Shown here: piece by piece, positions 1-12,420 of the stretch | How positions within the stretch are numbered: position 1 is the stretch's first letter | Layout of the letters: the number at the start of each line of letters is the position of its first letter | Assembly (NCBI GenBank): GCA_024278345.1 | Contig: JAJRTK010000095.1 | Coordinates: 1 to 12,420 of the forward strand | DNA from: a bacterium | GTDB lineage: Bacteria > CSSED10-310 > JAJRTK01 | Direction: 5' to 3' | Length of the DNA stretch: 12,420 nucleotides | Program-made: the position numbers and the translations under genes | Notes under the pieces: model-generated | The model's input: only the letters and a program-made list of their open reading frames with translations | Database searches by the model: none | Told to the model about the DNA's origin: nothing

Positions 1-450
1 CACCTACTCGGTGAGACAGCCGATCCCCGCAGTTTCTCCGCGCTTCTTGACAACCGCTCGCTCCGAGAGATCGATCTTCTGCAATACATCCACGGGAAGC
101 GAGCAACCCCTCAAACGCTGAAGCAAATCGCGGCCCACAATCGGTGGAAGCGCTCCATCAAGATCCTGGCCGCGCTGGTGGCCAATGAGCGCACGCCCTT
201 GGACACCGCGCTCCCCCTGGTGGAATCCCTTAGAATTCCAGAGCTTCGGGAAATCCTCACCGCCGGGCACGTCTCCCCCATCGTGCTCGGGGTGGTGAGG
301 CGCTACCACGAGGAGCGCTGGGTTGCGCAACATGGTGCGCCTCTACCAGCGAAGCTCAGTGCAGATGAGAAAAGCCCTCCGACAGTGTGGCGGGCCTCCG
401 AAGCAAGACCGACCAACAGCCCCCATCAACCTCACCCGGATAAATCATGA
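1..450 (+). CDS. C-terminal part of a helical-repeat protein (5' end outside window)
   Basis: An open frame enters from the left edge in frame 1 and ends at TGA 448-450, leaving 149 visible residues. I do not recognise a named function. Residues about 46-106 align by eye with the C-terminus of the next gene: both have an N-x-W-(K/T)-basic start, then I-x-x-x-LV-x-N-x-(R/K)-TP, then an LV-x-x-L helix and a basic V-(K/R)-R end. The two are therefore probably paralogues sharing an alpha-helical, HEAT-like C-terminal module. The last 40 residues are polar and proline-rich, probably disordered. There are no membrane segments or signal peptide in the visible part. The stop overlaps the next start as ATGA, which implies one operon and translational coupling. 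An in-frame ATG at 178 is internal, because homology to the neighbour begins upstream of it. Confidence 0.75.
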   Translation, partial: HLLGETADPRSFSALLDNRSLREIDLLQYIHGKRATPQTLKQIAAHNRWKRSIKILAALVANERTPLDTALPLVESLRIPELREILTAGHVSPIVLGVVRRYHEERWVAQHGAPLPAKLSADEKSPPTVWRASEARPTNSPHQPHPDKS

Positions 451-1580
451 CGGATCCATCTCTCGACCTTGGCCGCCAAATCCTGGAAGAAGCGCGAAGC
501 GGCGAGATCTCCCCGGAAATGAAAACGGCCCTGGCACAGGGTCTGATGCCGTTGGAAGAGGAGATTCTCGTCGAGATTCTCTTTCTTTTGAGCACGGATT
601 CGGATGAGAAGATCGCCAATGCCGCGCGCACGAGTCTCTACGAGCTTCCCGACAACCTCTTGGCCGGTATGGCAAGGAGCAGCGAAGCGACTCCCTCCCT
701 CTTGCACACGCTGGCGCGGATCAAAGTGGACTCCAGGGAGGTCATGAGAGATCTTGTGCTCAACCGCCTGGCGGAAGACCGAACCATCGAAATGGTGGCC
801 AGGCACTGCGAGCTACCTCAAGTGCTGGCCCTCATCGTCGGAAACCAGGAACGATTGCTTCGACATACGAGCCTCTTCGAGACCTTGCTGGGGAACCCGG
901 CTCTCCCCGGGTTCCAGAGAAACAAGCTCGACACATACCGAGAAGAGCTCCGGATGCGGGGACAACTGGACTCGGTAAAACCCGAGCCAACGGCGCCAGA
1001 AACGGCAGGGCCGATGACCGTTGCTTCCGAAGGTCCCAGCGAGGAGCTTTACGAGTTCGACCTCGATCTCATCGGCGAATTCGAAGAAGATGAGGAAAGA
1101 CCCATCGCCGATGAGGAGATGCTCCCTTTCGAAATCTACGCTGGCATGGAGCAGAGCCAAGAAGAACGCCAGCAGAGCATCTTCCAGCTCATTCAACTGA
1201 TGAACCCGGCGGAAAAACTACGCATGGCGACGCTGGGGAATACCGAAGCCCGCGCCATCCTTGTGCGCGACGGAAATCGAGCCGTCGCCCGAGCCGTCAT
1301 GGGCAATCCGAAACTCAAGGAAAACGAAGTCGAGCGGTTTTGCAAGATGCGAAACGTCCGGGACGAGATCCTCCGAATCATCGGAATGAACCGAAACTGG
1401 ACCAAGAACTACAGCATTGTTCACGGGTTGGTGGAAAATCCGAAAACGCCCGTGGGCATCAGCATCCGCCTGGTGAGCCGCCTCCACGCGGCCCACCTCA
1501 AGCAGCTCATGCGAAGCAAAGGCATTCCGGCAGCCTTGAAAGCAGCCGTGAAACGACGGCTCACAAAGGCGAAGGGATAG
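447..1580 (+). CDS. Helical-repeat (HEAT-like) protein of unknown function
   Basis: The 377-residue protein is soluble, with no signal peptide or membrane segment. Residues about 1-170 are leucine/alanine-rich amphipathic helices in repeat-like units, such as ILVEILFLLST and NAARTSLYELPDNLLAGMA, followed by a polar linker (about 175-200). An acidic stretch (about 200-228, rich in E and D) precedes a second helical domain, about 235-377. That domain carries an N-P-x-x-K-L block and the motifs VMGNPKL, MRNVRDEILR and NRNWTKNYSIVHGLVENPKTP. The architecture suggests a protein-protein scaffold, but no catalytic motif is visible and the substrate or partner is unknown. ATG 447 overlaps the upstream TGA (ATGA) with no clear Shine-Dalgarno, which supports coupled translation. 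It is convergent with the RND permease gene, whose stop lies 66 bases away. I have seen similar proteins in deltaproteobacterial and acidobacterial genomes, but that memory is unverified. Confidence 0.85.
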   Translation: MTDPSLDLGRQILEEARSGEISPEMKTALAQGLMPLEEEILVEILFLLSTDSDEKIANAARTSLYELPDNLLAGMARSSEATPSLLHTLARIKVDSREVMRDLVLNRLAEDRTIEMVARHCELPQVLALIVGNQERLLRHTSLFETLLGNPALPGFQRNKLDTYREELRMRGQLDSVKPEPTAPETAGPMTVASEGPSEELYEFDLDLIGEFEEDEERPIADEEMLPFEIYAGMEQSQEERQQSIFQLIQLMNPAEKLRMATLGNTEARAILVRDGNRAVARAVMGNPKLKENEVERFCKMRNVRDEILRIIGMNRNWTKNYSIVHGLVENPKTPVGISIRLVSRLHAAHLKQLMRSKGIPAALKAAVKRRLTKAKG

Positions 1581-1646
1581 CCTGTCTCCTGGAAAGAGCC
1601 GCGATTGTCCCACGTAGCATAGGCAGCGGTCGCAGTTCTTCTTTTT

Positions 1647-4600
1647 TTAGCTTTGGGGTTCGGGATCCCGCACAACTAAGCTGTAGACCGTGGGAATGAC
1701 CACAAGGGTCAAGATCGAAGAACTGGTCAACCCGGCAATGAGGGTCACTGCCAGTGGCACGCGCATCTCTGCCCCCTCCCCGATGCCAATGGCCATGGGA
1801 ATGAGCCCAAGGACAGTGGTGGCCGTCGTCATGAGAATCGGCCGGAGGCGAACCTGGCCGGCATGTTGGATGGCGCGGCGCACGTTCATCCCCCGCTGTC
1901 GGCACTGATTCGCATAGTCAATAAGAACAATGGCGTTGTTGACGACGATGCCCACAAGCACGATCATCCCGATGTAGACGACAATACTCACTGGGGTGTC
2001 GAGCAGGTACAGAGCTGCCAATGCACCGACGGCTGCAAGGGGAATCGAAAAGAGCACGATGAGGGGCTGGATGAACGACTCGAACTGGCTGGCCATCACC
2101 AGGTAGACAAGGAATACGGCCAGGGCCAAGGCGAAGATCAAGCTCTCGAAGGAAGCTTGCATCTCACGATTCTGCCCACTCACTTCCACGGTGGTTCCGG
2201 GAGGTAGGCTCTGGGAGTCAAGGATTCCCTGGATCTTTCGAGCCAGAGTTCCCAGGGCCACGCCGGATACGTTTGCGGAAAGTAGCGCAACCCGGCTTTG
2301 ATCGATCCGCTTGATCTCACTGGGACCGCGGCCGACTTCCAGCGTGGCCACGGCAGACAGGGGAATGGGGCGACCCACGCCGGGATTGACGATGAGGTTT
2401 GCCAGATCCGCGATGCTCCGTCGCTCCTTGTCCCTCAGGCGCACGCGGACATCGAGTTTCCGTTCGCCTTCATTGTATCTTGTGGCCACGTCGCCCTGAA
2501 CCAGGTCCCGTACAAGCTGAGCCACTTGCCGAAGATCCAGGCCCAGGGATGCCATCTTTTGACGGTGAAAGATGATCTGGATCTCGGGGTATCCGGCTTC
2601 GAGGTTGGAACGAAGGTCTTCCAGACCAGCGACCTCGTCAAGGCGTTTCACAAGCCTTACCGAGATTCTCTGGAGCTGGTCCAGATCGTCTCCTTTGACC
2701 TCGATCTCTAAGGGAGTTCTGAACGAAAAGAGGGAAGGAAACGAAAGTTGTGTCACAATTCCCGGCAGCTCTAAAAGAAGGTGGCGAAGCTTCTTGACTA
2801 CCCTTGTTTCCAGCGCGGCCAATGGCAGGCCCGCCAGAGCTGCCGCCGCTCGATCGAGGTAAAAATTCACAATGGCCTCGTTCTCCCGCTCCTGCGCCTC
2901 GGCAAAACTGCCTTCCTTCGAGATGCCCACGGTCGTATAGGTGGTAGCAATGCCTGGTATTTCCTTTGCCACGCCTTCCAGGCGGGCGGCAAAACGACTC
3001 GTTTCGTCCAGAGTCGTTCCAACGGGGCGTTCCAGGGAAACAGAGAACTCGCCCTGGTGCATACGCGGGATAAGCTCATCCCCCAAACGCGACCAGAGCA
3101 AAGTCGAGCCCCAAAGCAGGAGCAAGCTCAACCCGATGACACCGAGAGCGCGATCCATCGCCAAATCGAGGACCGCTGGATAGAAGCTGGTCAACCGTTC
3201 GAGAACCGCCTGAAAAAGCTTCTGGGGAAGCCAAATCAGAGCCCTGCAAAGCTGGAGGATGACCCAGATCCCGCCTCCGACGGTTCCCAGGGCCAACACG
3301 ACGATGATCTCCGCTACGTGACCCAAGAGGGTCAGCACCGCGCCGAGCAAAAGAGCCGTGAACCCAAAGAGCGCGCCGGCCAGGTGGAGAATCAGACGGG
3401 GTAGGAAGAGCAACGCTCCCAGGGCTCTCCGTGCTGGTCGAGGACCCGGTAGCCAGCGAGGCGGACGGAAAAGCGCCCGAAAGAACCCGAAAAAAAGATC
3501 CTTCACCGGCCGCCACAACTCGAATCTAACATAGGCGCCGAGCCGCTGTCCCAGAACGACGACGAACCCCACTGGCAAGAGCGCCACCACGAAGGGCGAC
3601 CACCGGCCAGAAGCGTCACCAGCCGGCAAGAGCTTGCCCCTTGCCCACGCCAAAGCGGATCGAGCGAAGTTGGCCGACCAGAGCTTCTCCCCCTCCAACC
3701 GACTGGGTAGGCGGAGCGCCGCGAGCATGGGAACCAAGGTCAAAGAGACAACCAAAGATGCCATGAGCGAAAAGGTCACGGTTAATGCCTGATCAGTGAA
3801 GATCTGCCCGGCCACCCCCTTGACGAACGAAATGGGAAAGAAAACCGCAACGGTGGTCAAGGTCGATGCCACGACGGCGGTCCCCACTTCACGGGTTCCC
3901 CGGCGGGCGGCATCGGTGACGGAATCTCCCTCTTCCCGGCATCGAAAGATCGATTCCAGCACGACAATGGCATTGTCCACCAACATGCCGATCCCCAGAG
4001 CCAACCCGCCAAGAGACATGATGTTCACTGAAACATGGCCAAAATACATGAGCGAAAAGGTGGCAACGACGCTGATGGGAATCGACAGGGCGACGATGAG
4101 GGTTGCCGGAAGCTTGCCCAAAAAGAAATAGAGGATCAGGATGGCCAATCCGCCGCCATAAATAGCGGCATCCAGGACCTCGCGTATGGAGTTCTCGATG
4201 AAGCGTGCCTGATCCTGAATCAACCGTAAATAGATGCCGCCAGGAAGGGTGTCGGCGAGTTTCTGACGCTCTTCGGGCTGCCCAAGAGCCGAAGCCGGTT
4301 TCTTCTGCTTGCCCGCGCTGCGATTCTTCCCCTGGATCTCCGATTCCTCGGTGCGTCGGCCCGCGGCACGCTGCACGTTCCTGGAAACCGCGACGGTATT
4401 GGCATCGGCCTCTTTGTAAATCGCAATCTCAACACTCTCCATGCCGCCGATGCGGGTGATCACCTTTCGGTCCTTAAACCCTATGCGGGCTGTGGCCACA
4501 TCTTGCAGCAAAATATTGGCACCAGCGATCTGCTTCAAGATGAGGCCGGAAATCTCTTGGAGGCCGCGGAATTCGTTGGTCGTGCGAAGAAGGTAATCGG

Positions 4601-5261
4601 CGTCCCCATGCTTGAGAGTCCCGCCGGCCAGGTTGACATTTTCCTGTGCCAGCCTTTGTTTGACGAGATCGGCCCCGATGCCGTAACGGATGAGCTTGTT
4701 CTTGTCGAGCTCGATGAGGATTTCCCTCTCGACGCCCCCCTGAACCTTGGCCGCCGCCACGCCGGGGATCCGCTCCAGTTGCGGCTTCAGTTCTTCCTCG
4801 GCAAGCTGCCGGAGCTCGTGTAGATCGGCGGCGCCATAAAGGCCGTACCGCATGATGGGATCGAGCGCCGGGTTATAGCGCAGAATCCGTGGCCGAGACA
4901 CCTCTTCAGGCAGGGCGATGAGATCGAGCTTCTGCCGGATATCGACGATGGTGTTATCGAGATTGGTGTCCCACTCGAGCTCCAGCAAGACTTCCGACGT
5001 GCCTGCCCTGGATAGAGAACTCAGGCGAGTAAGATTCCGCACGGCGGCCAGAGCTTCCTCGATGGGGATGGAGACCAGCCCTTCCACCTCCTGCGGGGCC
5101 GCTCCTTCATAGGCGGTACGGATGGTGATGCTCGGATAGGAGAGCTCCGGCATCAGATTGATCTCGAGGCGCGAGTAACTGAAGTAACCGAAGACCAACA
5201 CGCCAAGGGTGAACATACTGACGGTCACTGGCCTTTGGATGGCGGCGGAACTCAGCTTCAT
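1647..5261 (-). CDS. RND (AcrB/HAE1-type) efflux permease with unusual insertions
   Basis: This 1204-residue protein is an inner-membrane resistance-nodulation-division permease, which exports substrates by proton antiport with a periplasmic adaptor and outer-membrane channel. Family marks are the N-terminal IQRPVTVSMF helix, the porter domains with an INLMPELSYP start, TM4 G-x-x-LVDNAIVVLES (residues 425-437; D429), TM10 VGIVVNNAIVLIDYANQ (1103-1119), and RLRPILMTTATTVLG (1138-1152). ATG 5261 is chosen because AGGAG sits 6 bases upstream and the conserved N-terminus begins there; the open frame runs 26 codons further up, to 5339, but overlaps the adaptor gene. The adaptor's stop is 14 bases upstream, so the two form an operon. 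Typical family length is about 1040. The excess is a hydrophobic insertion at about 530-690 between TM6 and TM7 and a charged insertion at about 297-337. No substrate can be inferred. Confidence 0.95.
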   Translation of the reverse strand: MKLSSAAIQRPVTVSMFTLGVLVFGYFSYSRLEINLMPELSYPSITIRTAYEGAAPQEVEGLVSIPIEEALAAVRNLTRLSSLSRAGTSEVLLELEWDTNLDNTIVDIRQKLDLIALPEEVSRPRILRYNPALDPIMRYGLYGAADLHELRQLAEEELKPQLERIPGVAAAKVQGGVEREILIELDKNKLIRYGIGADLVKQRLAQENVNLAGGTLKHGDADYLLRTTNEFRGLQEISGLILKQIAGANILLQDVATARIGFKDRKVITRIGGMESVEIAIYKEADANTVAVSRNVQRAAGRRTEESEIQGKNRSAGKQKKPASALGQPEERQKLADTLPGGIYLRLIQDQARFIENSIREVLDAAIYGGGLAILILYFFLGKLPATLIVALSIPISVVATFSLMYFGHVSVNIMSLGGLALGIGMLVDNAIVVLESIFRCREEGDSVTDAARRGTREVGTAVVASTLTTVAVFFPISFVKGVAGQIFTDQALTVTFSLMASLVVSLTLVPMLAALRLPSRLEGEKLWSANFARSALAWARGKLLPAGDASGRWSPFVVALLPVGFVVVLGQRLGAYVRFELWRPVKDLFFGFFRALFRPPRWLPGPRPARRALGALLFLPRLILHLAGALFGFTALLLGAVLTLLGHVAEIIVVLALGTVGGGIWVILQLCRALIWLPQKLFQAVLERLTSFYPAVLDLAMDRALGVIGLSLLLLWGSTLLWSRLGDELIPRMHQGEFSVSLERPVGTTLDETSRFAARLEGVAKEIPGIATTYTTVGISKEGSFAEAQERENEAIVNFYLDRAAAALAGLPLAALETRVVKKLRHLLLELPGIVTQLSFPSLFSFRTPLEIEVKGDDLDQLQRISVRLVKRLDEVAGLEDLRSNLEAGYPEIQIIFHRQKMASLGLDLRQVAQLVRDLVQGDVATRYNEGERKLDVRVRLRDKERRSIADLANLIVNPGVGRPIPLSAVATLEVGRGPSEIKRIDQSRVALLSANVSGVALGTLARKIQGILDSQSLPPGTTVEVSGQNREMQASFESLIFALALAVFLVYLVMASQFESFIQPLIVLFSIPLAAVGALAALYLLDTPVSIVVYIGMIVLVGIVVNNAIVLIDYANQCRQRGMNVRRAIQHAGQVRLRPILMTTATTVLGLIPMAIGIGEGAEMRVPLAVTLIAGLTSSSILTLVVIPTVYSLVVRDPEPQS

Positions 5262-5275
5262 GGAGCGCTCCTGGT

Positions 5276-6448
5276 TCAGTTCCGCCCACCGACGACATGG
5301 ACCTGTGTTCCGGACTTGAGGCTCTGCTGGCCGACGCAAACCAGAAGATCCCCCTCTTCGATGCCAGACTTGGCTTCGAGAAACTTGTCGTTTTTGTACC
5401 CTGCCTCGAAAAGGACAAGCTCCGCGGTTTTCAGAGACTTTGGAGGCGCGGAGGCGGAATCGGAGGGAGGCTGCCCCTCGGCGGCCTCCGCCAACCCCAA
5501 ACTGCCCACAGCCGCTCCGCGGGACTTGGGCGTCGCAGCAGGCGCTGGCTCTTCTTCCTCTGGAACCTCCAGAGGCCTGATGACAAAGACGGCCATTCGT
5601 CCGTCACGGTCCATTGCGGCTCTCCGGGGCACCAAAACCACTCCTTCGTGGGTATCGGCAATGATCCGAACCTGGACGAACATTCCTGGCTTCAGCAGGT
5701 TTTTTCGATCTTCCAAGTCAATGGTCACCTTCACGGTACCGTTCCGTGGATCCACCGCGGGACTAATCCGCCGCACCCGGCCGGGGAAAATGATCTCTGG
5801 ATAGCCATCACTGAGGATCTCCGCTCGAAGGTGGGGCCGGATCTTTGCGACGACATTTTCCGGCAAGTGGACTTCGGCCACGCGGGAGCGCATATCGACG
5901 ATGGAAAAGGCGAGATTCGATGGGCTCACCCTCTCGCCAAAGCGAAGGCCACGCTGGGTGACAAGGCCCGGAATGGGTGCGACAATCTTGGTATTCTCGA
6001 GCCTGAGCTCGGCAAGTTCGCGGGAGATTTTGGCCTTCTTGACCGCGTATTTCGCGGCCTCGTAGGACTCCTGGCTGGTCATCCGGTTGCGGTGCATCTC
6101 CTCAAGGCGGATGAGCGTGGCTTGGAGTTCCGCATAACTTGTTTCCGCCTGTTTGTATGCTAACTCCAGCTCGGCGGGATCGATTCGAGCCAGGAGCTGC
6201 CCCTTCTTGACCCAGTCTCCTTCCTCCGCCTTGATAAGAACAATCTCTCCGGACACCTTTGGATAGACATCCACTTTCGACTCACTGTCGATGGTGGTGG
6301 TGGAAAGAATATAGGTGGAGATATCCCCTGTCACGGCGGAAACGACTTCCACGGGTGCTGGAGGCGTGTCCTGAGACTTGGCCTCCTCATCAGTCCGCGG
6401 CACACAAGAAGCGAGGAGAACCAGAACCACTAGACCCGGATATCTCAT
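5276..6448 (-). CDS. RND efflux periplasmic adaptor (membrane fusion) lipoprotein; start supplied by a MITE-like element
   Basis: This is a HlyD/AcrA-type adaptor of 390 residues that would bridge the RND permease to an outer-membrane channel. It starts MRYPGLVVLVLLASC, a short signal peptide with lipobox LASC; Cys15 would be lipidated. The order is a lipoyl/barrel-sandwich half (about 58-93, VYPKVSGEIVLIKAEEGDWVKKGQ), an alpha-hairpin (about 95-150), the second lipoyl half with APIPGLVTQRG (157-167), a beta-barrel (about 187-265) and a membrane-proximal domain with VLVPRRAAMDRDG. A low-complexity E/A/P/S segment (about 293-338) interrupts the last domain. No Shine-Dalgarno precedes ATG 6448, and that codon lies within the inverted repeat of an inserted element. 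The frame stays open upstream to ATG 6628, which gives a 450-residue form beginning MGLAL with 61 element-derived residues. The product is certain; which start is used is not. Confidence 0.9.
   Translation of the reverse strand: MRYPGLVVLVLLASCVPRTDEEAKSQDTPPAPVEVVSAVTGDISTYILSTTTIDSESKVDVYPKVSGEIVLIKAEEGDWVKKGQLLARIDPAELELAYKQAETSYAELQATLIRLEEMHRNRMTSQESYEAAKYAVKKAKISRELAELRLENTKIVAPIPGLVTQRGLRFGERVSPSNLAFSIVDMRSRVAEVHLPENVVAKIRPHLRAEILSDGYPEIIFPGRVRRISPAVDPRNGTVKVTIDLEDRKNLLKPGMFVQVRIIADTHEGVVLVPRRAAMDRDGRMAVFVIRPLEVPEEEEPAPAATPKSRGAAVGSLGLAEAAEGQPPSDSASAPPKSLKTAELVLFEAGYKNDKFLEAKSGIEEGDLLVCVGQQSLKSGTQVHVVGGRN
6430..6434. repeat. Target-site duplication copy 1 (CTAGA)
   Basis: CTAGA directly abuts the outer end of the left terminal inverted repeat. 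On the adaptor strand it reads TCTAG and lies in the codons for Gly-Leu-Val of the signal peptide. Confidence 0.8.
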
Positions 6449-6612
6449 CAAGGATCGTCGCGAGGCAGTCTGAGGCGCGTTTCCACCAAGGATGAGGAAA
6501 GGCGGACACCGGAGGCGTAGTCCTGCACTACGTCGAGGATGTCCCACCGACGAAGACGCCGGTGGAGACGATGAATCAGACGCCGCAGTAGATTTTTGAT
6601 GAGATATCCGGG
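6435..6612. mobile_element. MITE-like element, 178 bp, with 17-bp perfect terminal inverted repeats
   Basis: Its ends are CCCGGATATCTCATCAA at 6435-6451 and the exact reverse complement at 6596-6612. Both ends are bordered directly by CTAGA (6430-6434 and 6613-6617), as expected of a 5-bp target-site duplication. The interior is an imperfect palindrome around 6524. Its centre is CGTAGT(CCTGC)ACTACG at 6516-6532, with partial matches further out at blocks such as GTCTGA and TCCACC, so the whole unit could fold into one long hairpin. It carries no transposase gene and would need one in trans. Element plus duplication is 183 bp, exactly 61 codons, and it is open in the adaptor's frame. The CC-starting ends and 5-bp duplication would fit an IS1380-like parent, but that assignment is only a guess. 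Confidence 0.85.
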
Positions 6613-6617
6613 CTAGA
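6613..6617. repeat. Target-site duplication copy 2 (CTAGA)
   Basis: This is the identical pentamer abutting the outer end of the right terminal inverted repeat. Deleting the element and one pentamer copy joins the two flanks into a continuous coding sequence for a lipoprotein signal peptide. Confidence 0.8.
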
Positions 6618-6628
6618 GCCAAGCCCAT
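6613..6628 (-). other. Displaced native 5' end of the adaptor gene (ATG plus first codons)
   Basis: On the minus strand this reads ATGGGCTTGGCTCTAG. Joined to the sequence beyond the element it gives MGLALVVLVLLASC, a hydrophobic core with a lipobox, so this is the probable ancestral start. It still connects in frame to the adaptor through the element. Two cautions apply: no strong Shine-Dalgarno lies upstream, and the reconstructed signal peptide has no basic residue before its hydrophobic core, so a start further upstream cannot be excluded. Confidence 0.6.
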
Positions 6629-7008
6629 CTGAACACTGGAGCGGGCTCTTCGTCTAGGGTTTAGTTTTTGGTAAACTTTCTTTCCTTTTTGTGTTGCGTT
6701 CCGCTCCCGGCGGCGGCAATCCGTCCGCCGCCACTCGCCATTGTCGCCGCTCTTGCCATCCACTGCCCCAAGGTCGGAGCACCACCGAAAACCGCTCACG
6801 GGCATCTTCTCCCTATTTTGGTGTTGCACACCGGGTCTGGGCGTTCCACGCGAAGCCGACCAAGGAGAACATTCCGGGGAATCACCAAAACACACCCCTT
6901 ACAACTCCAAACGGCCAAGAGGTTTCAAAAATCGTTCGCCACAATGCCAGTATAGAACTCTTGACATTGGGTGCGATTCCAGCGTAAAAGTGCTTTCGTT
7001 CTGTGACT
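6629..7008. other. Gene-free spacer between the efflux operon and tRNA-Leu
   Basis: The spacer must hold the promoter of the minus-strand efflux operon and the plus-strand promoter of the tRNA. I see no credible protein gene in it: the open frames lack ribosome sites and recognisable motifs. It contains a perfect 8-bp GC hairpin, GGCGGCGG at 6709-6716 pairing with CCGCCGCC at 6725-6732. No T run follows on either strand, so it is not a terminator; it may lie in the efflux leader. I find no convincing minus-strand -35/-10 pair. Confidence 0.6.
6961..6990 (+). promoter_or_regulatory. Probable sigma-70-type promoter of tRNA-Leu
   Basis: A perfect -35 TTGACA at 6961-6966 is followed after 18 bases by TAAAAG at 6985-6990, a 4/6 match to TATAAT. 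The expected start is about 6997-7000, roughly 10 bases before the mature tRNA, a normal distance for a tRNA leader. Confidence 0.55.
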
Positions 7009-7093
7009 GCGGAAGTGGCGGAACAGGTAGACGCGCACGCTTGAGGGGCGTGTGGTGAGAGCCGTGGGGGTTCGAGTCCCCCCTTCCGCACCA
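7009..7093 (+). tRNA. tRNA-Leu (anticodon GAG)
   Basis: The cloverleaf can be drawn fully: acceptor stem GCGGAAG (7009-7015) with CTTCCGC (7083-7089), discriminator A 7090 and encoded CCA 7091-7093. The D stem is GCG/CGC around AACAGGTAGA. The anticodon stem CACGC/GCGTG encloses loop TTGAGGG, giving anticodon GAG at 7043-7045, which reads CUC and CUU. The variable arm is class II (13 bases, 7053-7065) with a short GGT/GCC stem. The T stem GGGGG/CCCCC encloses TTCGAGT. The class II form and this anticodon identify leucine. It stands alone, with its own promoter and terminator. Confidence 0.97.
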
Positions 7094-7107
7094 GACCGGT
7101 CATCGAT

Positions 7108-7135
7108 GCCACCATTTGGGTGGCCGTTTTTTTTT
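7108..7135 (+). terminator. Rho-independent terminator after tRNA-Leu
   Basis: Stem GCCACC (7108-7113) pairs with GGTGGC (7119-7124) across a 5-base loop, and nine T follow at 7127-7135. It lies 15 bases beyond the CCA end, so it should separate the tRNA from gap. Confidence 0.9.
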
Positions 7136-7200
7136 GCTCGAAAGCGGCTGTACTCGATCTTCCCACCGCCGAACGGCTTGCGCCAGTTGGGGGGGTGTGA

Positions 7201-8262
<1,062 letters not shown>

Positions 8263-8290
8263 TCTAGATAAGAAACCGGCGAGGCCCGCG

Positions 8291-9439
8291 GTGCGACAGC
8301 CCGATGCCACAAACAAGCAGGGCGATTCTCCGAAAGCGGCGACGCACGGGGGCTCTCGTTTCGACGACGGACAGGCGCCACGCCTATCCGTCGTGGTTCC
8401 CGTCTACAACGAGGAAGGCAATATCTTGCCCTTCCTCCGCCGTCTGCTGCCGGTCCTGGAAGGGCTCGGCGACAGCTTTGAAATCCTGCTGGTGGACGAT
8501 GGTTCCACCGACCAGGCTTTCGATCTGGTCCACCGGAACTACGCGGGAGATCCCCGGCTCCGGACGATCCACCTGACCCGGAATTTCGGGCAGCAGCAGG
8601 CGGTCATCGCCGGTTTTCACCGCTGCCTGGGCCAGCGGATCGTCACCATCGATTCGGACCTCCAAAACCCGCCGGAAGAAATCCCTCGGCTGCTGGAGAA
8701 GCTGGGCGAGGGTTATGACGTGGTGTGCGGCTGGCGCCGGGACCGAAAAGATCCCCTCCTCCGCCGTTGGAGCTCGTTGCTCCTGAACTGGATCGTGTCG
8801 CGGCTTACGGGAGTTCACCTCCACGACTACGGATGCATGCTCCGCGCCTACCGCCGCCCCATTATCGAGCGGGTCAAGCAATGCCCGGAGCGCTCGACGT
8901 ATATCACGGCTCTCGTCTGTTGGGTCGGAGGAAAATTCGCGGAGATCCGCGTCTCTCATGCACCTCGGGAGCAGGGCCGCTCCAAGTACAATTACTGGAA
9001 GCTTTTCGAGCTCTACTTCAATCTGCTGACGGGGTTCTCCATCTTCCCGCTCCAGCTCATCAGCTTCGCGGGGATGCTCTGTTCCTCAGTGGGTTTTGCG
9101 TTGGCCATCTGGCTGATGTTCCAACGCATTTTTATGGGGAACGACGAAGTGGGTCTGACCTCCATCTTCGCCGTGTTGTTCTTTCTGTTCGGGCTGGTAG
9201 TGCTCTCCCTTGGCCTCATCGGAGAATACATCGGTCGAATCTACATCGAGGTCCAGGGACGGCCCGGTTTCTTGATCCAGAGGGAAACCCGCCTCGATCA
9301 GCTATCCGGGCTCCCACCGGGTTCCCAAGGGTGGGAGGCGCCTCTGGATCGAGGTGATTCCCGGCCTTCGAATGCTGGCCGGCCAGACCACGCACCGGAG
9401 GGGGACGGAAAGCGAGCCCCCACGGTTCATGGCCCCTAG
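8291..9439 (+). CDS. ArnC-like family 2 glycosyltransferase (polyprenyl-phosphate sugar transferase)
   Basis: The 382-residue protein is predicted to transfer a sugar from a nucleotide donor to undecaprenyl (polyprenyl) phosphate at the inner membrane. GT-A motifs are SVVVPVYNEEGN (33-44), LLVDDGSTD (66-74) and the metal site DSDLQNPPEEIP (121-132; D121, D123). DYGCMLRAYRR (179-189), a C-P-E-R-S-T-Y block and GRSKYNYWKL (229-238) closely resemble E. coli ArnC. Two C-terminal membrane helices lie at about 251-275 and 290-315, followed by GEYIGRIYIEV. About 28 residues precede the catalytic domain and a hydrophilic 50-residue tail follows the usual end. GTG 8291 is chosen because GAGG lies 6 bases upstream and it follows gap closely. 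The neighbouring ArnB-like domain supports an aminosugar substrate, though the exact sugar is unknown. DPM1- or GtrB-like activity is the alternative. Confidence 0.93.
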   Translation: MRQPDATNKQGDSPKAATHGGSRFDDGQAPRLSVVVPVYNEEGNILPFLRRLLPVLEGLGDSFEILLVDDGSTDQAFDLVHRNYAGDPRLRTIHLTRNFGQQQAVIAGFHRCLGQRIVTIDSDLQNPPEEIPRLLEKLGEGYDVVCGWRRDRKDPLLRRWSSLLLNWIVSRLTGVHLHDYGCMLRAYRRPIIERVKQCPERSTYITALVCWVGGKFAEIRVSHAPREQGRSKYNYWKLFELYFNLLTGFSIFPLQLISFAGMLCSSVGFALAIWLMFQRIFMGNDEVGLTSIFAVLFFLFGLVVLSLGLIGEYIGRIYIEVQGRPGFLIQRETRLDQLSGLPPGSQGWEAPLDRGDSRPSNAGRPDHAPEGDGKRAPTVHGP

Positions 9440-9452
9440 AAAAGAGAAGATC

Positions 9453-11711
9453 ATGCCTCTCCCCTCCAACTCCGCGTCTCCGGAAAAGCGGCTCAATGTT
9501 CTTGTTACTGGCGGCGCGGGATATATCGGCTCGGTTCTCTGTCCCATGCTCCTTGAGCGGGGTCACCACGTTGCGGTTTACGACCGCCTTCTATATGGCC
9601 GGGACGGCGTCGAGCCGCTGCTGGGGCACGGGGAATTCGAGTTGGTGGAAGGCGACATCCGGCAGATCCAGAAGCGACCCGATCTTTTCCAGCAAGCGGA
9701 CGTGGTGGTTCACTTGGCATCGCTCTCCAATGACCCCACTTGCGAGCTACGCCCATCCCTCACCGACGAAGTCAACTACCGCGCCTTGGTCTCCACGGCT
9801 GATATGGCCAAGAAACACGGAGTTGCCAGGTTCGTTTTCGGCTCTTCGTGCAGCGTCTACGGGTCGGTGCCAGGAAGCGAGAGCGTGGACGAAGATGGTC
9901 CCCGGCGGCCGGTGAGCCTCTATGCGAAGACGATGGTCCGCTCCGAAGACTGGCTGCTGGCCGTCGGGAGCGAGGGATTCCAGCCATTCATCCTTCGGCA
10001 GTCCACGGTTTTCGGCTACTCGCCTCGGATGAGGTTCGATCTTGCCATCAATCTGATGGTCAAGACAGCGATGGAGCAAAAGAAGATCTACGTCATGGGC
10101 GGCGGGCAACAATGGCGCCCCTTCGTTCATGTCCGGGACACGAGCCGAGTGCTGCTGGCAGGTGTCGAGGGAAAGCTACGTTCAAGGATCCTGAACGTCG
10201 GTTTCGACGATCAAAACTACCGGATCGAACAACTGGCGCGAATGGTGGCGGAACGGATGGGAAACGTATCGGTGGAAGTTGTGCCCGATGACGCCGATCG
10301 CAGAAGCTATCGCGTTCGATTCCATCGACTTTCCCGGGAGCTTCCAGAACCCGGCCCCACCCGCGGGGTGGAAGATGGGGTCGATGAAATTGAAGAGGCG
10401 ATTCGGACGGGTGTCATCAAAGATCCCAATGCCCCCAAAACGGTGAACCTCCGGGTACTCAAGGCCAAAATGGCGCTGCCTGCCATTGCCGGCGGAGAAC
10501 CGGCTTTCTCCCGGTTTTTCCCTTTTTCTCTTCCGAAGCTGGGAAAGGCCGAAGAAAAGGCAGTTCTGGAAGTGTTGCGTTCGGGATGGCTCACCACCGG
10601 GCCGAAGGTTCTGCAATTTGAAGAAAAATGCCGAGAGCGCCTCGGCTGCGCCGAAGCGGTGGCTGTCTCTTCCTGCACGGCGGCCCTTCACCTCTCCTTG
10701 GTTGCCCTGGCCATTGGCCCGGGCAACGAAGTGATCACCTCGCCCATCACCTTCCCGGCCACGGCGAACGTGATTCTTCACGTGGGCGCAACGCCCATCT
10801 TCTGCGACGTCGAGCCGGGAACGCTCAATCTGGACGTGGAAGCGCTGGAATCGTTGATCACGCCGAAGACACGGGCCATCCTGCCCGTTCACATGGCCGG
10901 TCGTCCCTGCGACATGGCAAGGCTTTGGGAGCTTGCCGAGCGGCGCGGGATTGCCGTGATCGAGGACGCCGCACACGCCTTCGGAAGCCGGTACGAGACG
11001 ACCGCGGGATTTCGGGGAAGCGGCGGCGATGCGAAGAAGCTGGGAGGCCCGGTGGGAAGCGGCTCACCGGTGTCCTGTTTCTCTTTCTACCCCATCAAGA
11101 ACTTCACCACCATAGAAGGCGGCTTGATGGCGGTGAATCGCCCGGAACTGGCTCAAATTGCCCGAGTCGCGGCCCTCCACGGCCTGAGCCGTGACGCCTG
11201 GAACCGATACGGCGCCAAAGGAACCCACCACTGGGATGTCGTGCTGCCCGGCTACAAATACAACATGAGCGATGTCCAGGCAGCCATTGGACTCTGCCAG
11301 CTCCAGAGACTGGACGGGTTCCTGGAAAAGCGGCGCAAAACCGCCGCCTACTACCGAGAAGCTCTGGGGGGAGTGGAGGGAATCCAACTTCTGGATCCAC
11401 CCCACGAGGGGGATTCCCACCACCTGTTCATCATCCTGGTGCAACCGGAGATCCTGGGCGTGGACCGAGACCGGTTCACCGCGGCGCTCCGGGAGGAGAA
11501 TATCGGAACGGGCATCCACTTCCGGGCGTTGCACCTCATGACCGCTTACCGGGAGCGCTTCGGTTTCCAGCGGGGCATGTTTCCGGTCGCCGAGGCTGCA
11601 TCGGACCGGCTTCTCTCCCTTCCGCTCTATCCCGCCATGGAATACGAAGCAGTGGAACGTGTAGCGGAAGCCGTAAGGAAATTGGCCGACTACCTCCGCC
11701 GCGGAGCATAG
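9453..11711 (+). CDS. Fusion of extended SDR (epimerase/dehydratase) and ArnB-like PLP aminotransferase
   Basis: This 752-residue bifunctional protein probably makes an amino-deoxy sugar nucleotide in the cytoplasm. The N-terminal extended SDR (about 12-335) has the NAD-binding motif TGGAGYIG (19-26), LASLSNDPTC (88-97), SSCSVYG (131-137) and an active-site Tyr157. The usual YxxxK reads YAKTM, with Met161 in place of Lys. The C-terminal DegT/DnrJ/EryC1 domain (about 345-750) has GWLTTGPK (378-385), SSCTAALH (406-413), IEDAAHA (503-509), PLP lysine Lys549 in FYPIKNFTTIEGG, GYKYNMSDVQAAI (600-612) and GTGIHFRALH (685-694). It resembles E. coli ArnB throughout but has an extra glycine-rich loop at about 515-540. 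ATG 9453 follows the GT stop by 13 bases with a weak AAGAGAAG ribosome site; ATG 9429 is an overlapping alternative. The fused aminotransferase keeps a standalone-like N-terminus at Met340. Confidence 0.93.
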   Translation: MPLPSNSASPEKRLNVLVTGGAGYIGSVLCPMLLERGHHVAVYDRLLYGRDGVEPLLGHGEFELVEGDIRQIQKRPDLFQQADVVVHLASLSNDPTCELRPSLTDEVNYRALVSTADMAKKHGVARFVFGSSCSVYGSVPGSESVDEDGPRRPVSLYAKTMVRSEDWLLAVGSEGFQPFILRQSTVFGYSPRMRFDLAINLMVKTAMEQKKIYVMGGGQQWRPFVHVRDTSRVLLAGVEGKLRSRILNVGFDDQNYRIEQLARMVAERMGNVSVEVVPDDADRRSYRVRFHRLSRELPEPGPTRGVEDGVDEIEEAIRTGVIKDPNAPKTVNLRVLKAKMALPAIAGGEPAFSRFFPFSLPKLGKAEEKAVLEVLRSGWLTTGPKVLQFEEKCRERLGCAEAVAVSSCTAALHLSLVALAIGPGNEVITSPITFPATANVILHVGATPIFCDVEPGTLNLDVEALESLITPKTRAILPVHMAGRPCDMARLWELAERRGIAVIEDAAHAFGSRYETTAGFRGSGGDAKKLGGPVGSGSPVSCFSFYPIKNFTTIEGGLMAVNRPELAQIARVAALHGLSRDAWNRYGAKGTHHWDVVLPGYKYNMSDVQAAIGLCQLQRLDGFLEKRRKTAAYYREALGGVEGIQLLDPPHEGDSHHLFIILVQPEILGVDRDRFTAALREENIGTGIHFRALHLMTAYRERFGFQRGMFPVAEAASDRLLSLPLYPAMEYEAVERVAEAVRKLADYLRRGA

Positions 11712-11866
11712 AGCCTGTAAATGCAGGCAAAAACAAACGCCGCAATTCCGGTCCTGGTTCTTCCGCAGGGCATATTCCAAAGCCCTCAAGACAGACCACG
11801 AACCGAATCTTCAAGGGCACTGTCGGGAACCTTCCCGGTTTGCTAATATGGAACCGGAGGGTGCCC

Positions 11867-12420
11867 ATGAATCCTGTATCGCAAATGGTTGCCGACTCCG
11901 AGGTGACCTATCCGGAAAGCGACGGACAGCCCATGGCCGAGAATACGGAGCAGTTCGCCTGGATCGTTCTGATCAAGGAGGGACTGGAAGCCGTCTTCGC
12001 CGACGACGAAGATGTCTTCGTAGCCGGAGACCTTCTTTGGTATCCGGTGAGAGGACGCCCGGACATCCGTCGAGCCCCGGACGCTATGGTGGCATTCGGT
12101 CGGCCCAAAGGGCATCGGGGCTCCTACATGCAGTGGAAAGAAGGCGGGATCGCACCACAAGTCGTGTTCGAAGTGATGTCACCGGGCAACACGAAACGCG
12201 AAATGCGCCAAAAGCTGGAGTTTTACGAGCGGTACGGCGTGGAGGAATACTACCTGTGGGATCCGACCCAGGGGCGACTCCAAGGCTGGAACCGCAAGGA
12301 TACGCGCCTGGCGCCGGTCTTCCAGATGGAGGGCCACCGAAGCCGGCGCCTGGGAGTGCGCTTCGAAATCGTGGATGAAAACCTGGAGCTATACGGCCCT
12401 GGCGGCAACCGGTTCTTGAG
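11867..12420 (+). CDS. Uma2 family protein (PD-(D/E)XK nuclease fold), 3' end outside window
   Basis: ATG 11867 has GGAGG 6 bases upstream, and the frame stays open to the window edge, giving 184 residues. The protein reads as a Uma2/DUF820 family member: a DLLWYPV strand, APDAMVAFGRPKG (70-82; Asp72), then VVFEVMSPGNTKREM (99-113; Glu102) and KLEFYERYGVEEYYLWDP (116-133). Asp72, Glu102 and a nearby lysine are candidate metal-site residues of the restriction-endonuclease-like fold. The biological role of the family is not established, and members occur in many paralogous copies in some phyla. The 155-base gap upstream holds short hairpins (11713-11728 and 11824-11837) but no clear terminator or promoter. 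Separation from the sugar genes suggests an independent unit. The last residues and stop are not visible. Confidence 0.88.
   Translation, partial: MNPVSQMVADSEVTYPESDGQPMAENTEQFAWIVLIKEGLEAVFADDEDVFVAGDLLWYPVRGRPDIRRAPDAMVAFGRPKGHRGSYMQWKEGGIAPQVVFEVMSPGNTKREMRQKLEFYERYGVEEYYLWDPTQGRLQGWNRKDTRLAPVFQMEGHRSRRLGVRFEIVDENLELYGPGGNRFL

Follow-up and report, generated by a model that had tools for sequence, protein, structure and literature searches.

The terminal repeat of a MITE-type palindromic element as the likely source of the start codon and first residues of an RND efflux adaptor

The window, that is, the whole stretch of 12,420 nucleotides analysed here (contig JAJRTK010000095.1, positions 1 to 12,420), carries a pair of efflux genes on the minus strand. 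The gene for a membrane-fusion (HlyD/CusB-type) efflux adaptor occupies 5276–6448 (390 codons plus stop, counted from ATG 6448; Pfam HlyD_D23, 2.5e-25), and 14 bases beyond it, in the same direction, begins the gene for an RND efflux pump (1647–5261, ATG 5261; Pfam ACR_tran, 1.4e-230). Both reading frames are intact. Upstream of the adaptor gene and divergent from it is a plus-strand tRNA gene (7009–7090), the sole match in an Rfam scan of the window, which placed the element described below in no known RNA family. Elsewhere in the window, an open frame of 785 codons (9354–11711) apparently encodes a fusion of an NAD-dependent epimerase with a DegT-type aminotransferase, as judged by eye from its translation.

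A MITE-like palindromic element of 178 bp, to which no strand is assigned, lies at 6435–6612 and was recognized by inverted-repeat detection, by its copies and by its fold. On the plus strand its 5' end reads CCCGGATATCTCATCA and its 3' end is the exact reverse complement of this. The gene-proximal terminal inverted repeat spans 6435–6450 and the gene-distal one 6597–6612; pairing runs between 6435–6456 and 6591–6612 and is perfect over the outer 16 bp. Both flanks carry the 5-bp sequence CTAGA (6430–6434 on the gene side, 6613–6617 on the upstream side), a target-site duplication that reads TCTAG on the minus strand. When the flanks were joined with a single copy of the duplication, the result was ATGGGCTTGGCTCTAGTGGTTCTG, translating to MGLALVVLVLLASC; at the rebuilt empty site itself, ATGGGCTTGGCTCTAGTGGTT encodes MGLALVV.

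Read outward, an intact end of the element is TGATGAGATATCCGGG or a close variant, containing ATG-AGA-TAT-CCG-GG. The preliminary description had placed ATG 6448 and the Met-Arg-Tyr-Pro codons within the terminal repeat, and they are indeed found there, at 6448–6437 on the minus strand (ATG at 6448–6446), with the following Gly codon (6436–6434) straddling the boundary; the element contributes the adaptor's first four codons and the first two bases of codon 5. The repeat is followed by T CTA GTG GTT CTG GTT CTC CTC GCT TCT TGT, which produces MRYPGLVVLVLLASC, the proposed present signal peptide (6404–6448, minus strand; lipobox LASC, Cys codon 6406–6404), and then the adaptor. The former start, at 6626–6628 on the minus strand, is now 61 codons upstream. 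Since the element and one target duplication together measure 178 + 5 = 183 nt (61 codons), a number divisible by three, ATG 6628 is still in frame, and its use would add the 61 residues that the description had counted.

The empty-site reconstruction also agrees with the earlier proposal that a native MGLAL start was replaced by MRYPG with the addition of an arginine, as the N-region appears uncharged in the rebuilt MGLALVVLVLLASC and bears Arg in the present MRYPGLVVLVLLASC. A PROSITE-type lipoprotein rule calls for Lys or Arg among the first seven residues and a lipobox Cys at positions 15–35; MRYPGLVVLVLLASC just passes (Arg 2, Cys 15) and MGLALVVLVLLASC just fails (no Lys or Arg, Cys 14), a contrast to which we give no weight because the former leader could have changed since the element inserted. 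MRYPG in relatives without the element had been named as evidence that would speak against the proposal. Two members of the same phylum have lipoprotein signals at this position that lack MRYPG; these relatives, only ~39% identical, fit the view that MRYPG came with the element, yet are too distant to settle the matter.

The surveyed genome is a 6.06-Mb draft in 550 contigs, and copy counts were drawn from searches and fetched regions. The 178-bp sequence recurs in several contigs at 97, 96, 95, 94, 93 and 90% identity, along with many further diverged copies. The terminal repeat (≤1 mismatch) gave 130 matches in the genome versus 1 for a reversed control pattern, which together with the recurrence of the whole 178 bp excludes chance; a search with a loose seven-base pattern was uninformative. 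A profile built from 31 copies (nhmmer) yielded about 100 distinct matches within the fetched regions. Paired copies span 145–239 bp, no transposase gene lies in the element, and an exact 5-bp target duplication was found in 21 of 39 paired copies. Given these terminal inverted repeats, the short length, the many copies without a transposase gene and the target duplications of fixed length, the family is of MITE type, non-autonomous, and has transposed many times. In the fold of the 31-copy consensus, 94% of cells stay paired and two-sided changes occur at 14 of 39 pairs, but this covariation was not taken as evidence because a wrongly oriented imperfect palindrome yields the same signal.

A full-length match was absent from 60 other genomes, in which only two short weak matches were detected. 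No complete autonomous partner with the same ends was found in the draft genome searched. Contig C239 contains a fragment (C-terminal part; L265:1–760) of an IS1380-type transposase with a single repeat-like end, TCATGAGATATTCGGG, about 200 bp downstream; this may be what remains of the parent of the family. The IS1380-type loci of other phylum members, searched for a parent, have ends that do not match those of the family. Contigs C97 (L201:2958–3141) and C364 (L212) both stop 6 bases past an element copy, each with TCCAAA, a pattern to be expected from breaks in the assembly at the repeat. On contig C497 (L252), a long gene contains an in-frame 145-bp copy (12666–12810), preceded by ~110 codons and followed by ~600; it resembles an insertion of a Rickettsia palindromic element and is the only family copy with positive coding scores on both sides.

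The outward ATG is kept at 113 of 126 ends of true copies. Genes reading outward are distributed over frames 0, 1 and 2 relative to the repeat ATG as 19, 17 and 22; those open into the repeat as 9, 6 and 11; and those that in addition have a coding start within −40 to +60 nt as 5, 3 and 4. Selection for the ATG frame in neighbouring genes was rejected, as these counts show no bias, and start donation looks like a by-product of insertion, arising by chance from a repeat constrained by transposition, rather than a selected function. Several adjacent genes encode exported proteins (contigs C12, C97 and C42). At least one further gene appears to start at the repeat ATG: on C97 the ATG is followed by MRYPGWRGWLTLFLVLGSVAFVRG and the amidohydrolase domain of a secreted protein, with no better start visible, though the contig stops 6 bases past the element. 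A HEAT-repeat lipoprotein gene on C42 (MRNPSYGVFLFLAGLVFALASC) also reads in frame from the repeat ATG and is ambiguous as a case of donation owing to an in-frame GTG just after the repeat. This gene and those on C47, C62, C5, C14, C507 and C365, all in frame from the repeat ATG, were left uncounted, as their own downstream starts are plausible or the case is ambiguous.

At the adaptor gene, a Shine-Dalgarno-like tetramer (−16 to −5) is absent before both ATG 6448 and ATG 6628; in the fetched regions of the genome, such motifs precede 48 of 102 gene starts versus 21 of 104 control positions. Coding-like codon use sets in 4 nt past the repeat, and the sequence upstream of the element scores as non-coding. 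A signal sequence that starts only after about 60 residues is out of place for lipoprotein processing, and MRYPGLVVLVLLASC would be the only good N-terminus left for export and lipid attachment. ATG 6448 is probably the better candidate start. The RNA of the minus strand from 6640 to 6425 is predicted to fold at −98.2 kcal/mol (z −6.6), and in all modelled transcripts starting at 6613 or further upstream the unpaired probability of AUG 6448 is 0.00 at every base, in line with the earlier proposal that the start codon lies in the 3' arm of a long hairpin and could be masked in messages begun upstream. Such masking is physically reasonable from the modelled folds, and it could be relieved by ribosomes in transit, by RNase III cleavage or by an internal promoter. 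In transcripts starting inside the element, the surroundings of AUG 6448 are predicted to be more open, still largely paired; a promoter scan detected no sigma-70-like promoter within the element. Of the preliminary reading as a whole, the insertion at the start region, the change from MGLAL to MRYPG, the gain of Arg and the hairpin pairing stand on sequence and folding, and the use of ATG 6448 for initiation is best described as probable.

We consider it likely that a MITE-type element inserted in the signal-peptide codons of the RND adaptor, that the repeat ATG at 6448 is now the start, that expression has probably dropped, and that the donation was unselected. The non-autonomous element transposed into these codons, duplicating TCTAG, and the repeat, conserved for transposition, happens to read TGATGAGATATCCGGG outward with its ATG in frame with the adaptor. 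The insertion put distance between the former start and the hydrophobic core, and translation now most likely begins at ATG 6448. In messages begun upstream, the AUG would lie in the long hairpin and expression would probably fall below its former level, except where transcription starts inside the element or the hairpin undergoes processing. Against this stand the missing Shine-Dalgarno-like sequence at 6448, the missing sigma-70-like promoter in the element and the old ATG, which is still in frame. Continued use of that ATG, in which case the element would be translated in frame ahead of the signal sequence, as happens with Rickettsia palindromic elements, appears unlikely. In its favour, the frame is open through the 183 nt, the folded message leaves AUG 6628 more accessible than AUG 6448, and the copy on C497 scores as coding on both sides. 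Against it, the signal sequence would be misplaced for lipoprotein processing, ATG 6628 has no Shine-Dalgarno-like motif either, codon use before the element scores as non-coding, and chance often leaves a frame open through the element (11 such cases listed among 39 paired copies).

The fully paired AUG, the lack of a ribosome site at 6448 and the lack of a promoter-like site in the element could also be read as signs that the insertion silenced the adaptor, leaving a gene heading to a pseudogene, and the apparent recency of the insertion (copies 96–97% identical) means that the intact adaptor frame proves little. We regard silencing as rather improbable, considering that neither the adaptor nor the pump frame is broken, that ribosomes translating from 6628 could open the hairpin, and that a promoter scan has little sensitivity outside well-studied phyla. 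It is very improbable that the family spreads a start and hairpin independently adopted by genes for exported proteins (the efflux adaptor and those on C97 and C42), the hairpin making translation conditional on the transcription start. A selected portable start cassette, with copies kept because the repeat provides genes with a start codon and a basic n-region and with the hairpin acting as a regulator, would fit the high retention of the ATG and the exported products of several neighbours; it is extremely improbable, as the neighbours show no bias to the ATG frame, the ATG sits in a repeat that transposition conserves regardless, and the C42 gene retains its GTG just past the repeat. The family was probably not selected for donating starts, as the absent frame bias suggests.

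Among known systems, the Correia elements of Neisseria are MITEs of similar size that form a stable hairpin near gene starts and have characteristic terminal repeats and a TA duplication; by this general description they differ from the present family in their terminal repeats and in duplicating TA versus 5 bp here. MITEAba12 of Moraxellaceae donates MQQS, encoded by its outward-reading repeat, as the opening four residues of adjacent genes in three cases, from three genomes; it resembles our element in being short and non-autonomous, with 16-bp terminal repeats that donate first residues (PMC6382973). It differs in length (113 bp versus about 176 bp, 178 bp for the window copy), and in target duplications (8–9 bp versus 5 bp); it also folds weakly (about −24 to −27 kcal/mol) and carries outward promoters, versus a strong palindrome with no promoter detected here (PMC6382973). 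Rickettsia palindromic elements, repeats of ~150 bp that can be in frame with genes, are often intragenic and translated with the gene as a peptide insert (PMC10969869), whereas most copies here lie outside genes and in-frame intragenic insertion has one clear example, on C497. In the pneumococcal BOX, likewise a small interspersed repeat that donates a start codon, boxC supplies it to expressed open frames running past the element; these have no recognized homologues except hypothetical genes (PMC3049150), whereas here the frame encodes a Pfam-supported efflux adaptor.

The family is new to the searched set, with no full-length match outside this genome, and the mechanism is already described, with MITEAba12 among its precedents. 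The locus offers a clean case in which a transposon end would now encode the opening residues of a host protein, altering the charged region of an efflux adaptor's signal peptide.
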